Shown in pieces: positions 51,421-60,418 of a stretch of 64,000 nucleotides of DNA. The stretch comes from Prochlorococcus sp. AG-388-A01 (GTDB taxonomy: Bacteria > Cyanobacteriota > Cyanobacteriia > PCC-6307 > Cyanobiaceae), in NCBI GenBank assembly GCA_003279945.1, contig QCGK01000007.1, positions 1-64,000 on the forward strand, given 5' to 3'. How positions within the stretch are numbered: position 1 is the stretch's first letter; each line of letters starts with the position of its first letter. Under the pieces are notes generated by a model, which worked only from the letters and a program-made list of their open reading frames with translations, did no database searches and was not told where the DNA came from. The translations under genes were made by a program, and so were the position numbers.

Positions 51421-52593
51421 TTATCTAATCGAAGGTTGAAAATCTTTGCTATCAAGTGGTTTTAACAAGTATAATCTTAATAGTTGGTAACCGTTTGATA
51501 AATAGGTAGGTAATTTTTTTAAAGTTTTAGATACTATATTCGCATCTCCGTTCTGAATATCAGAGAGGAGCTTGTTGTTTTCGACTATTTTATCTAATCT
51601 TTCATAAAAAGATTGATTATGGACGTCAAGAACTACAGGGAAAACTCTAGCGGAAGTTTCATTTGTTTTGTTAATAACATACTGGTCGTAATCTCTAGCA
51701 TCTAAACCTAATGAACTGTAAAAATCTTTTTTAATTCCAAGATCTCTAGCATACATAGTTGCAAATACAGCTAGTAAAAAAAACCTTGACCATAATTTGG
51801 ATGTTAATGGAAGATTGTTCAAAAAGTATCTAAATCTATGGAAATAATCAAATAGTGGGTGTGTAAAGGTAGTGCCCCCAATGGTAATTTTTTGACTTAA
51901 TGATTTGACAGTACGCGGTTGAGCTTTCATTAATGCATCAAAGAAATCGCCATGTCTATTTTCATCTTGACACCAATTTTCAAAGTAATTAAATAGTGGA
52001 AAAATCTTGCTATCTGGATTTTTTTCAAGATGCCTATAAATTGCTATGTATCTCCAATAACCTATTTTTTCAGATAAATAAGTTGCATAAAAAATACTTC
52101 TTGGTGGGAAATAGGTATAATCTTTATTGGCTGTTAAAAAACCTAAATCTAACTGTAATCCAAAATCATTCATTGATTTATTCAAGAAACCTGCATGTCT
52201 AGCTTCGTCTCTCGCCATATGAGCAAAACATTCAGCAAGAAGAGGATTTTTGTCTTTTATCCTTTTGCTAAGTTCCTTGTAAAGTAAGAAACCTGAAAAT
52301 TCTGAAGTACAACTTCCCTCAAGAAAATCAACAAAAAGCTCTCTTGTCTCAGGATCTAATTTTTCTGCAGCTCCTTCAAATTCACTATTTCTTACAAAAT
52401 GATGTCTGTTGTAATCTTTCCTAAATTCCTCACAAATAGCTTCCAATTCCTCCTCGTTTATGGATAAATCCATATTTTCCATTGCCTCAAAGTCTGTTGT
52501 ATAGAATCTTGGAGACAAAATTGTTTCCTTTGCTGGTACCTTTCCATTATTGACTTCTTTTTTATTTTTTGATTCAATAGTTGATTGAGTCAT
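51421..52593 (-). CDS. acsF: Mg-protoporphyrin IX monomethyl ester oxidative cyclase
   Basis: [50 protein letters not shown] and NRHGDFF. Confidence 0.97.
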
Positions 52594-52673
52594 ATTTGAT
52601 TTGATTTATTAATACTATTATTTACTATGAATTGCATTTTCGAGGGAAAAGTTAACTTGGTGTTATTGTTTCT

Positions 52674-53252
52674 TTAATTAACTCCTATTAATTTTTGTCC
52701 ATTTAATCTCTGTAGAACTCTTGAAATAATTAATTTAAGGGTGATTCTTTTTTCGTCAATAAGGAATGACTCAATAATGCTAGGTTCTTGATTTGGTTTG
52801 GATAAGGAAATACTTTTTAATGAACTAATATCATCCTTCTCAAAGGATAGCCAGAAGTTACAAGTATCCTTAATTTCACAATTTATTACCCAACATTTAT
52901 CTCCAGCAATAGGTCTATTGGTATTTTTAAGATAAATATTATTTATTGCTAATCCTCTTTGATTAATTTCTTCAACGAATTCAGGAATCAAATGATTATT
53001 AATAAATTCATGGAATGGCTTTTTTTCTATAGGGAGTTCTTTCTTTTGTTTAGGAATAGTATTAACAGGTGATTCATTTCCATTTTTTTTATCAACTTTA
53101 GGGGCAGAATTATTTTGCGAATTAACATTGTTTTCATTTATATTTGAGATTTTTTCAGATGTAATTTTTTTTATCTCTTCAGAGTTAGGGTTATTAGTAC
53201 CATCAGATATTTCTTTATTAACTTCGTTATTTGATTCTAAATTTTCTTCCAT
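52674..53252 (-). CDS. DUF2996-like protein
   Basis: low-complexity N-terminus, then KKPFHEFINNHLIPEFVEEINQRGLAIN. Confidence 0.75.
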   Translation of the reverse strand: MEENLESNNEVNKEISDGTNNPNSEEIKKITSEKISNINENNVNSQNNSAPKVDKKNGNESPVNTIPKQKKELPIEKKPFHEFINNHLIPEFVEEINQRGLAINNIYLKNTNRPIAGDKCWVINCEIKDTCNFWLSFEKDDISSLKSISLSKPNQEPSIIESFLIDEKRITLKLIISRVLQRLNGQKLIGVN

Positions 53253-53319
53253 AAATCTCCATCATATAAAAACCATTATAAATTAAAAAAACATTTTTTA
53301 TAAAAAATTATCTAGATTT

Positions 53320-53763
53320 CTACCAATCATTATCATCATTATCCCAGTCATCTTTATCATCGTGACTATTTGAGTAATTCTTATCCCTTTTCAAATTATT
53401 TTCTTCATTATTTTTTACTACTCTATAATTAACAGATATTGTTGGTTGAGCATCTCTTATGTCCCTTTGTGGAGGCATTTCAATATTAGATTTCGTTTCT
53501 TCATCATTATTTAGAGGTTCATAATTTTCTTCAATATTTTTGAAAGAATTTTTTTTATTACTAGTAACTACAATATTTAATAACGAGCTTATTATTAAAC
53601 CAGAAAAAAATGAAATGCTTATTAACTTTCCTACACTAGCTTGTTGGACAGTCCATTTAAAGTATCTAAATGAAGTCTTTTGATTATTATTTGTAAATAA
53701 TAGAGTTTGAAGAATTATTATTAAAAAAAGAATTAATAATAAAAATTTTTTCTTAAGAGTCAT
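53320..53763 (-). CDS. hypothetical membrane protein, acidic C-terminal tail
   Basis: two TMs; ends SHDDKDDWDNDDNDW. Confidence 0.75.
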   Translation of the reverse strand: MTLKKKFLLLILFLIIILQTLLFTNNNQKTSFRYFKWTVQQASVGKLISISFFSGLIISSLLNIVVTSNKKNSFKNIEENYEPLNNDEETKSNIEMPPQRDIRDAQPTISVNYRVVKNNEENNLKRDKNYSNSHDDKDDWDNDDNDW

Positions 53764-53829: not shown

Positions 53830-56052
53830 TTATGTTAACTCTAAATCGATTTGATATTTGAGAATATCGACTTTTATAATCTTAATTTTTATTTCATCTC
53901 CAACTTTATATGATTTTTTAGATTTCCTTCCAATCAATAAATTTTGTCTTGATCTATATTCATACCAATCATTATTAAGAGTACTAACGTGAACAAGACC
54001 TTCTACATTTAGTTCTGATACCTCAACAAAAAAACCATAACTTTGCACAGATAATATAAAGCCACTATAAATATTTCCTATTAATTTTTCTGCCTTTCTT
54101 ACTTTTTTAATACTTATCATATTAGATTTATATTGGTTTACTTTAGACTTATATTCATTAAGTTTTTCGATAATAAAACTATTAAAAAAAATATCAATAT
54201 TCTTTGAAATTGATGAATTAAAAATACCCCAATTTACTAATTTCAATGAATTACTCTCCAATATATTTATTTCATTAGTATTACTTTTCTTTGATTTCTT
54301 CCCATTTATTATCATATTAAAAATGCAGTATTGATTCATAAGATTGATGAAGTCATATCCAGGAATTGTCCATGGAGATATAAATAGTTTTTCTGATTCA
54401 TCAATATCTGCATTATTAGAAATCAGGCTTACTTCATTTTCCTTAAACTCATTAATTAAGAGATTATTTAATATTCTTTTTTTGTTATCATCTACGCATA
54501 ATTTAATTACTTGACTAAATGATAAATTACCATTTTCATCTAGTTCTATATCTTTATCGATAAATTCTGAATATTTGATGATTTCATTTGCATTAATATA
54601 ATCTAATCCCTTTGAGAGGTAACCTACACTTTTTAAGCCATATTGATTTGAATGTTTGAACCATATTAAATTCGCTTCATGTAGTATTGGAGAAAGAAAT
54701 GTTTGGCAGTCATCTTTTTTTAATGGTTCAAAATATCCTTTTGAGGATTCAGCTGGATTGTGAATAAAGAATTCATCTAATGATTGAATTTTGTTAATTG
54801 GTGAAGGGATTTCAACTTTACCAGCCAAGAGTTGTTTCTGTCTGAATGAAGTTGAAATTTCAAGTATTTTATCTAAATCCTCTATATGTTCTTTTATAGG
54901 TTTTAGTAAAGGTGAGGTAATTCTAGTTTTACTTTTTCTAGATAGAAGCGCCTCAGTATGATCACTTCCTACGATAAGGGAGCATCTTACTAAAGTAAGA
55001 TGAAAAGACCATGCAGTTATTTCATTATCGCTATTTAAATGTAAGCAGAGGCTTATTGCTTCATTCTTTTCACCTAAGTTAAATTCAGAGGCATTTCTTA
55101 AGGCTTCAGAAAGGTAGTTTTGCCAATTATTCAATAAGGGTAATGATTCAAATCCATTAATGAATATTTCTAACGATTTTTTACTACTTAGTTCTACTCT
55201 TTCTGCAAGATTATTTGTATGCAACCATAATTTAGTATTTATATCTTTTCCCTTCTCTATTTGAATCATTGGGAGGATTGGAGAATTATCAGAATTCCAA
55301 CTTTTGAACAAATAAGATTTTTTATCTGATAAGTCTATTCTTTCCCTTTTTTCTATCTTTTTAGATTTAATAAGAGTTTCATTGCATAGCTTGATGATAT
55401 TGCTTTTAGATAAAACAAAATCTGTATCTAATTTCTCATTATTTTTTAGTTGTAGTTCTTGTATTACATGGCCAAATCCTTCTTCTTGACCTATCGGAAA
55501 TCTATCAATTTCGACTTTAACTATATTTTTATTATCAGGTTTGTATGCGTATTTCTTATCCTCTTTTGGAAGTTTTATTTTAGAAAGAATCCTATCATCG
55601 ATAGGAATCGCATATATATCATTGTTTATTATTTCAACTTTAGAAAGAAGTATTTGGTTTGATCTTTCAAGAATGCAATCAACTATTCCCTCAGGAGATC
55701 TTCTTCTGTAACCCTCTTTTATTATCCTTACTAAAACTTTATCTCCATTCCATGCATAATTAAGTAAATTTTCTTTAATATATATATCTTCTTTGTTTTT
55801 TTCCCTTACAGCAAAGCAATACCCTTTACTACTGCATCTTATTTTGGCGACAATATGATCGCTTTCACTTGAGCAGGTATATTCATCTTCTGCATTTTTA
55901 TTAATTATTTCAAGCTTTTCTAAAGCTGTTAAAGCAATATCTAATTTATCCTTATCAGATTTTTTTGTTATCTTTAATGATCTGCATAATTTTTTATATT
56001 CTAAGCCTTCTGACTGATTTAAATTGTCAATTATTGAAGATGTTGTGAACAT
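53830..56052 (-). CDS. RNase II/R (RNB) family protein, catalytic residues apparently lost
   Basis: 740 aa with cold-shock-like N-terminal part and C-terminal S1 domain (GFILSVQSYGFFVEVSELNVEGLVHVSTL); RNB signatures degenerate. Confidence 0.82.
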   Translation of the reverse strand: MFTTSSIIDNLNQSEGLEYKKLCRSLKITKKSDKDKLDIALTALEKLEIINKNAEDEYTCSSESDHIVAKIRCSSKGYCFAVREKNKEDIYIKENLLNYAWNGDKVLVRIIKEGYRRRSPEGIVDCILERSNQILLSKVEIINNDIYAIPIDDRILSKIKLPKEDKKYAYKPDNKNIVKVEIDRFPIGQEEGFGHVIQELQLKNNEKLDTDFVLSKSNIIKLCNETLIKSKKIEKRERIDLSDKKSYLFKSWNSDNSPILPMIQIEKGKDINTKLWLHTNNLAERVELSSKKSLEIFINGFESLPLLNNWQNYLSEALRNASEFNLGEKNEAISLCLHLNSDNEITAWSFHLTLVRCSLIVGSDHTEALLSRKSKTRITSPLLKPIKEHIEDLDKILEISTSFRQKQLLAGKVEIPSPINKIQSLDEFFIHNPAESSKGYFEPLKKDDCQTFLSPILHEANLIWFKHSNQYGLKSVGYLSKGLDYINANEIIKYSEFIDKDIELDENGNLSFSQVIKLCVDDNKKRILNNLLINEFKENEVSLISNNADIDESEKLFISPWTIPGYDFINLMNQYCIFNMIINGKKSKKSNTNEINILESNSLKLVNWGIFNSSISKNIDIFFNSFIIEKLNEYKSKVNQYKSNMISIKKVRKAEKLIGNIYSGFILSVQSYGFFVEVSELNVEGLVHVSTLNNDWYEYRSRQNLLIGRKSKKSYKVGDEIKIKIIKVDILKYQIDLELT

Positions 56053-56125: not shown

Positions 56126-56437
56126 CTAATTATTTTGTATGTCTCTTTTCTCTTCTTTGTCGATAGCTAAATAGTTTATAAAAAGCTTTATACCAATAAT
56201 AAAAAATGTTATGGAGGCTATTGATTTAAGAACTATCTCGGGTAAAAAACTTGAAATAGAACCACCTGTCAATGCTCCAAGCAAACTAGCAAAGACAAGT
56301 GCAGAAGAAGATCCTAAAAAAACTGCTAATGGTTTATTAGAAGTGCCACTTATAGTTAAAGTAGCTAGTTGGGTTTTGTCACCTAATTCAGCTATAAAAA
56401 CGGTTAAAAATGTTGATAGTAATAAACTTAAAACCAT
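56126..56437 (-). CDS. TMEM165/GDT1 (UPF0016) family half-size transporter
   Basis: FIAELGDKTQLATLTISG. Confidence 0.92.
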   Translation of the reverse strand: MVLSLLLSTFLTVFIAELGDKTQLATLTISGTSNKPLAVFLGSSSALVFASLLGALTGGSISSFLPEIVLKSIASITFFIIGIKLFINYLAIDKEEKRDIQNN

Positions 56438-56764
56438 TTATAAATAATTTTTGAATGTATCATAGGCTAAAAAAATACTTATTATTATCATCAAGGCACT
56501 AGTAAATAAGGCAAATTTACTTGCAGATATTTTATTTGACAACCATTTTCCAATAAGAACTCCTACTACACTAGAGCTTATTAAAGCTAAAGAACTCCCA
56601 AGAAAAACAATTATTGGCTTCCCCGATTCAGCAGAAAGCATTAGAGTAGCTATCTGAGTTTTATCTCCAAGTTCAGCAATAAAAATTGTTGTAAAAGTTG
56701 TAATAAATATAGATAAGAAACTTTTCTCTATATTGTTATCTTTTTTTTCTAATTTACTATTCAT
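56438..56764 (-). CDS. TMEM165/GDT1 (UPF0016) family half-size transporter
   Basis: FIAELGDKTQIATLMLSA; tandem paralogue. Confidence 0.92.
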   Translation of the reverse strand: MNSKLEKKDNNIEKSFLSIFITTFTTIFIAELGDKTQIATLMLSAESGKPIIVFLGSSLALISSSVVGVLIGKWLSNKISASKFALFTSALMIIISIFLAYDTFKNYL

Positions 56765-57108
56765 TTCCCTGAAACGGCCATTTTAAAGTCTTTCATTTCT
56801 TTGCTTTTGTAACCATAATTCGATGAGATATGTTGTTTGCAGCAATCTATAAGGAATTTATCACCAGATTTCATATATCCCTTAAATGAAGTTGAGAATT
56901 CATTTACTCGGCAAAAATGAGGTCTGTTTTCGTATATTAAGCATTTTTTATTTTCTCTGTCTAGATTTTTGCACCATCCATCTTTAGCTGTCATGGAATT
57001 TATTAGAGCAATATCTTCTTCGTTAAGTTTGTCAGCTAAATCGCTTCTTTCGGTCAAGTTGAATTTACAACAAGCTCCGCAATTTTCTATGCATGTCCAT
57101 GATTTCAT
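56761..57108 (-). CDS. YkgJ-type cysteine cluster protein
   Basis: CIENCGACCKF and CLIYENRPHFCR. Confidence 0.85.
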   Translation of the reverse strand: MKSWTCIENCGACCKFNLTERSDLADKLNEEDIALINSMTAKDGWCKNLDRENKKCLIYENRPHFCRVNEFSTSFKGYMKSGDKFLIDCCKQHISSNYGYKSKEMKDFKMAVSGK

Positions 57109-58663: not shown

Positions 58664-60418
58664 GTGTTTAGATCAAAATTCTCATATTCAAATTCTAAAT
58701 CAAGTTATTCGGATCTTATAGAAGATATAGAGTCGGGAAACATAGAATCAATATATTTCTATCCTAGGCAGAGAGAGATTGATGTTCTTTATAAAAATGG
58801 TAATAAATTTAAAATACCTATCCTTTACAACGATCAATTAATTCTTGAAAAGGCCTCCGAAAATAAAGTAGAACTTACTATTAACAATAGTAGAAAAGAA
58901 GCTTCAGCAGCTAATTCGTTTGCCTCAATTAGTCTTTTCCTTATTTTCATATTAGCTATAGTATTAATCTTAAGAAGTACATCAAAATTGGCTTCTAGAG
59001 CCTTTGGCTTTAGTAAAAATCAATCTAAATTTGTAACTATTGATGATGTAGATACAAGATTCGATGATGTTGCTGGTGTTCCTGAAGCCGCAGATGAATT
59101 AAAAGAGGTAATAACTTTTTTGAAGGAACCAAAAAAGTTTGAAAATCTTGGAGCAAAAGTTCCTAAAGGTGTCATTTTAATTGGTCCTCCTGGAACAGGT
59201 AAAACATTATTGGCTAAAGCAATTGCTGGCGAATCAGGAGTGCCTTTTCTCTCAATAGCGGCATCAGAGTTTGTAGAACTTTTTGTTGGTGTTGGCGCCA
59301 GCCGAGTGCGAGATCTATTTGCTAAGGCTAAGGAAAAATCTCCTTGTATAATTTTTATTGATGAAATTGATTCTATTGGTAGGCAAAGAGGTTCTGGGAT
59401 TGGAGGTGGAAATGATGAAAGAGAGCAAACTCTTAATCAACTTCTAACTGAATTAGATGGGTTTGCTGATAATTCAGGGATTATTGTTTTAGCAGCCACA
59501 AATAGACCAGATATTTTAGATGCAGCTTTGTTAAGACCAGGTAGATTTGATAGGAAAATAGAAGTAATGCTTCCAGATTTAGATGGTAGAAAAAAAATTC
59601 TCTCAGTTCATTCTCTTTCAAAACCACTATCTAGCGACGTTGACTTGGGATATTGGGCTTCAAGAACAGTTGGATTTTCTGGGGCAGATCTTGCAAACTT
59701 AATGAACGAGAGTGCTATTCACTGTGCAAGAGATGTATCCAAATTTATCAGTGATATTCATATAGAAAATGCTCTAGATAAAATTACTATTGGGTTAAGG
59801 ACTTCTTTAATAACTTCTCCTAATACGAAAAAAATTATTGCATATAACGAAGTAGGAAGAGCTATTGTTTCTGCCGTGAGAAATGGGATTGAATCAGTAG
59901 ATAAGATTACAATTTTACCTAGGTCGGGTTCATTAGGAGGATATACAAAAATATGCCCAGATGAAGATGTAATTTCTAGTGGCTTGATTTCAAAAAAATT
60001 ATTATTTTCAAAAATCGAAATTGCTCTCGCAGGAAGAGCCGCAGAAACTATAGTTTTTGGCAAAAGTGAAATTACACAATGTTCCATAAACGATATTTCT
60101 TATGCTACGAATGTAGTAAGAGAAATGGTAACAAAATATGGATTCTCGATTATTGGTCCAATTTCAATGGACTCTGATAATAATGAAATGTTTTTGGGAG
60201 AAGGATTATTTACGAGAAAGCCTCTCATAGCAGAAAATACTAGTTCTAGAATTGATAATGAAATAATAAAGATTTCTAAAATTTCCTTAAATAATTCAAT
60301 AGAAATATTGAAAAAAAATAGAGTTTTACTAGATAAATTAGTTGAAATACTTATAAATCATGAAACTATAGATAAAAAACTGTTTAAATCAACAACTTCT
60401 AAATTGTTGAATGTGTGA
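58664..60418 (+). CDS. FtsH-family AAA+ protein lacking the HEXXH zinc motif (putative pseudoprotease)
   Basis: [32 protein letters not shown] and [17 protein letters not shown] intact; NEVGR in place of HEXGH. Confidence 0.93.

Follow-up and report, generated by a model that had tools for sequence, protein, structure and literature searches.

The window analysed here, a stretch of 64,000 nucleotides of Prochlorococcus DNA, carries a gene that raises the question of what an RNB-family protein does once its catalytic residues are gone. The open reading frame at 53830-56052 on the minus strand starts with ATG and is real, matching the preliminary description of this DNA. ORF analysis, domain search, tree and profile identified its 740-aa product as a zam orthologue and a putative RNB-family pseudonuclease. 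Pfam gave the domain order CSD1, CSD2, RNB and S1, with E-values of 2.5e-17 (OB_RNB), 3.1e-10 (CSD2) and 3.3e-12 (S1) and an RNB match of 56.7 bits against a cut-off of 29.3, which bears out the RNB-like architecture with a C-terminal S1 domain noted before. All parts lie on the minus strand: an N-terminal region that is helical in the model at low confidence (residues 1-62, 55867-56052), CSD1 or OB_RNB (Pfam and alignment; residues 70-124, 55681-55845), a CSD2/linker region with approximate boundaries (Pfam and alignment; residues about 134-237, 55342-55653), the RNB domain (Pfam; residues 238-541, 54430-55341) and the S1 domain (Pfam and alignment; residues 658-737, 53842-54081). The named matches at 81-86% identity were Prochlorococcus. 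The host assembly comprises 1.55 Mb, is 88% complete and contains two RNB genes, zam and a canonical rnb beyond the window.

The reference set for aligning the window protein comprised E. coli RNase II, E. coli RNase R, and Zam and Rnb sequences from many cyanobacteria. The reference Asp columns, D201/D207/D209/D210 of RNase II and D272/D278/D280/D281 of RNase R, are occupied by K250, P258, L260 and P261, which replace the four Asp in the erased Mg-binding motif YLFKSWNSDNSPILPMIQI (residues 247-265, 55258-55314, minus strand). By alignment and profile the SPxRRYxDL motif is likewise erased (SPWTIPGYDFINLMNQ, residues 559-574, 54331-54378, minus strand) and reads SPWTIPGYDFINL; its arginines are gone, with Tyr in the column of RNase II R500, and the Tyr253-equivalent position is lost as well. 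A profile of non-picocyanobacterial Zam aligned 'llddAls' to 'PILPMIQ' and placed 'ftaplrrYaDllvqr' opposite 'WTIPGYDFINLMNQY', and the register at the Asp motif was identical by alignment and by this profile. The predicted models form strand, loop and strand at the former Asp motif, as expected. Both strings quoted in the preliminary description were located at these residues. Its statements that the T-I-D-x5-D-x-D-D-A signature lacks the four Asp, the columns reading K-P-L-P, and that the Arg pair of SPIRRYPDLxxHR is gone were correct, and the profile alignment to the RNB family that it proposed found the catalytic columns without acids.

A tree of 62 proteins separated the Zam type (SH-aLRT 97) from Rnb (SH-aLRT 100), each as a group of its own. 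It placed the two E. coli enzymes, RNase II and RNase R, side by side on long branches with a support of 82, unlike the published tree, and nothing was drawn from this placement. The picocyanobacterial Zam proteins branched together with full support, and the stem leading to them was long (1.31 changes per column). The non-picocyanobacterial Zam profile gave the window protein 437.8 bits, the Rnb/E. coli profile 18.8 bits. Because the tree was built without any named Zam sequence, we equate the protein with named Zam on the basis of the diagnostic residues and of a complement of just two RNB genes in most genomes. Cys73 (55834-55836, minus strand), the first Cys of R-C-S-S-K-G-Y-C-F, has the position of the redox-active C73 of PCC 7002 Zam (PMC9145284), and Cys79 (55816-55818, minus strand), the second redox-type cysteine, was placed by alignment with the same protein, so that the numbering of both is identical. 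Both cysteines were present in 35/35 picocyanobacterial Zam proteins, and each was found in 35 of the 38 others. Zam of PCC 7002 requires both in vivo, and the C-to-S changes phenocopy the deletion (PMC9145284). W101 and R116-R118 correspond to the L34 Trp and the L45 Arg run of CSD1, the loops being assigned by order and not by structure. The suggestion that this protein belongs to the Zam group was thus supported by the alignment, the tree and the diagnostic CSD1 cysteines, and the comparison with RNase II homologues put it outside the Rnb clade.

The window protein shares with named Zam (Synechocystis PCC 6803 sll1910 and Synechococcus PCC 7002; PMC9145284) the domain order, cysteines 73 and 79, the CSD1 Trp and Arg run, a degenerate active site, conservation centred on the OB domains and a clade separate from Rnb. 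It differs from named Zam in having none of the acids and no RR, in its lineage-specific fixed residues, in a host with a single phycobiliprotein gene and in the position of its gene behind two GDT1-type transporter genes. Named Zam is further characterised by a redox-dependent function in vivo and by resistance to acetazolamide when the gene is deleted. Cyanobacterial Rnb/RNase II (Synechocystis sll1290, PMC3293843) has the RNB fold in common with it, but Rnb retains all four acids and RR (21/21), forms a separate clade and carries CSD-like, wH and HTH domains at the N-terminus, whereas the window protein has CSD1/CSD2 of the RNase R type. RNase R (E. coli Rnr; B. subtilis 8cdu) has the closest architecture but, unlike the window protein, has catalytic residues and nuclease function; the RNase R equivalog was the strongest equivalog, at 167.1 bits far below its cut-off of 597.85. 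A near-complete class-level relative (4.2 Mb, one contig) had a single RNB gene of the Rnb type and no Zam match, in contrast with the published statement that Zam occurs in every cyanobacterial genome searched; this relative could represent an early-branching lineage.

Acids were counted in the four columns. Rnb had four in 21/21 proteins and Prochlorococcus Zam had none in 25/25; other picocyanobacterial Zam had none in 9/10 and one in 1/10. The 38 non-picocyanobacterial Zam proteins had zero (5), one (10), two (19) or three (4) and never four, and many of them retained SPxRRY plus a D-D or E-N pair. By these counts, the active site erodes by degrees across Zam and is lost entirely only in the Prochlorococcus/Synechococcus family. 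Fixed in picocyanobacterial Zam were W252, P258, L260, P261 (34/35), W276 (34/35), E284, W310, W561 and N573, and since residues are fixed at the old active site, the former pocket appears from the alignment to have come under a new constraint instead of simply drifting. Fixation of three of the four former catalytic columns in picocyanobacteria gave a hypergeometric value of 0.002, which is post hoc and only suggestive. The core finding is therefore not new, as the pseudo-active sites of Zam were reported in 2022 (PMC9145284); the graded course of the loss and the fixation of other residues at the former catalytic positions are new details within the literature searched.

A zam gene without internal stops was found in 58/61 genomes of the genus, while no zam match was found in the other three, which are 95-96% complete. 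Within the genus, dN/dS was 0.13-0.19 overall, 0.03-0.10 in CSD1, 0.06-0.09 in S1 and 0.17-0.27 in RNB. Judged from these ratios, zam is constrained along its entire length, with the strongest selection on CSD1, which holds Cys73 and Cys79, and on S1. Compared with Zam from other cyanobacteria, the median identity was 0.61 in CSD1 (region 63-133) and 0.53 in S1, and 0.17 and 0.14 in the two halves of RNB; in these comparisons conservation is shifted from the RNB domain to CSD1 and S1. We give almost no credence to the idea that zam is a decaying gene heading for loss. The fast divergence of the RNB domain would fit decay, but the full-length copies in those 58 genomes, the overall dN/dS and the residues fixed at the old active site all speak against it. 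Two artefacts were considered separately: chance or sequencing error as the cause of the loss was rejected because all 25 Prochlorococcus orthologues lack all four acids, and a frameshift was rejected because there are no stops and selection is purifying.

The full-length AlphaFold model reached a pLDDT of 52, this low confidence arising because its alignment held Prochlorococcus sequences alone. The RNB-only model was better (pLDDT 64, pTM 0.69). The RNB domain matched the RNase R fold with a TM-score of 0.64; the RNB fold is kept despite the catalytic loss. RNase R was the best match by both structure and sequence, the closest solved relative by sequence being 8cdu, B. subtilis RNase R in complex with a 30S degradation intermediate. 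The Ssd1 structure 7am1 was also among the structural matches. With the four Asp and the SPxRR arginines gone and the fold retained, the alignments support the earlier reading of the protein as a pseudonuclease. We infer that Zam of the window would not hydrolyse RNA, and its conserved CSD1 and S1 suggest that it would bind RNA.

We consider it fairly probable that Prochlorococcus Zam belongs to the RNase R-like RNB branch, is non-catalytic and serves as a redox-responsive degradosome or RNA adaptor. Zam would then probably regulate RNA breakdown and not perform it, as a redox-responsive, non-catalytic adaptor in RNA decay with RNase E as candidate partner, and its RNB domain would be a structural hub in which hydrophobic and proline residues fixed in the lineage occupy the old active site. 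Neither nuclease activity nor binding to the RNAs tested was seen with purified Zam of PCC 7002, an aggregation-prone protein, and the authors of that study propose a redox-controlled activation of RNase E by Zam (PMC9145284). RNase E was found in 12/12 relatives checked and was not found in the host assembly, which is 88% complete. The partnership of Zam with RNase E would extend by analogy from a single Anabaena protein, Alr1240, which was identified as Zam (PMC9145284). A review calls the same Alr1240 an active RNase II-like exonuclease (PMC10989914), which is at odds with taking all of the Zam family to be dead nucleases. Since most other Zam proteins keep one to three acids, residual activity is possible there, and possibly none is left in picocyanobacterial Zam, as far as the residues indicate.

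The report on Alr1240 (PMC10989914) would also fit a Zam that is still a nuclease through a non-canonical site, with acids supplied from elsewhere in the RNB domain. The picocyanobacterial RNB domain has 11 acidic columns conserved at >=90%, four of which (E284, E302, E427 and D448) are new to the lineage. Even so, we regard such a site as very unlikely: the conserved acids, at positions 240, 266, 284, 302, 342, 394, 427, 448, 484, 490 and 506, form no cluster resembling D-x5-D-x-D-D, the arginine is missing and so is the Tyr253 equivalent, and no activity was seen with PCC 7002 Zam (PMC9145284). A replacement acid motif was sought in the linear sequence of the picocyanobacterial RNB domain and none was found; the models, of moderate confidence, might still accommodate acids from other parts of the domain that come together in space. 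Rather unlikely, though better placed, is a translational or mRNA-specific RNA-binding regulator like yeast Ssd1, which would act through a surface patch on the cold-shock domains and have no link to RNase E. In its favour, the RNB pseudonuclease Ssd1 binds RNA at a relocated site (PMC8934651), the model matches 7am1, and no part of Zam is better conserved than CSD1, which holds W101 and the conserved Arg run 116-118. Catalytic acids are lost and cold-shock domains constrained in both proteins, but fungal Ssd1, an RNA-binding regulator, arose from eukaryotic Dis3L2 by a separate loss (PMC8934651, PMC8097288). Furthermore, Zam has no known target RNA, the interaction data on RNase E point elsewhere, and the redox cysteine pair of Zam was not found described for Ssd1.

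The only catalytic enzyme of this type in the host genome is Rnb, encoded at 70685-71536 of the contig (about 70.4-71.5 kb, minus strand), beyond the window. It has 394-398 aa, consists of an RNB domain with a short tail, lacks the N-terminal domains and starts with TTG 45 bases behind rpsR, just before the RNB domain. Rnb had 398-441 aa in all four Prochlorococcus-type genera sampled, compared with 676-706 aa in Synechococcus-type relatives. The shortened forms made up one clade in the tree and lacked the CSD, wH and HTH domains that typical Rnb carries at its N-terminus. The two RNB proteins are thus reduced in complementary fashion, Zam having OB domains and no catalysis and Rnb the catalytic core alone. 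This pattern suggests cooperation and does not show it; Zam may act in trans as an RNA-capturing partner of Rnb, with or without RNase E, which we hold to be improbable and yet a testable novel angle.

To our knowledge, Zam is among the few known bacterial RNB pseudonucleases, and it is tied to photosynthesis. Prochlorococcus genomes contained one phycobiliprotein-type match, compared with 9-13 in Synechococcus-type relatives. Since Prochlorococcus keeps zam under constraint with one phycobiliprotein gene, the core role of Zam is not phycobilisome-specific, and the phycocyanin defects of zam mutants do not reflect its core job. Prochlorococcus offers a minimal genome in which the link of Zam to RNA decay can be tested, and picocyanobacterial Zam, whose active site is entirely gone, is the cleanest protein for deciding whether Zam ever cuts RNA.

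Immediately upstream of zam, at 56126-57108 of the window on the minus strand, lie a gene with a CxxCxxCC domain and a pair of separate genes, each for a half-size GDT1/UPF0016 cation antiporter. The order of GDT1 pair, CxxCxxCC gene and zam was kept in 62/62 Prochlorococcus loci; the GDT1 pair was present in 10/10 other picocyanobacteria and did not adjoin zam in the other cyanobacteria sampled. Downstream, at 51421-53763 on the minus strand, follow genes for a DUF2996 protein, a LapA-like small membrane protein and a 390-aa Rubrerythrin-family protein that we take to be AcsF-like, and all three were conserved in 62/62 Prochlorococcus loci. The window also encodes an FtsH-type AAA/M41 protease with a GTG start at 58664-60418 on the plus strand.
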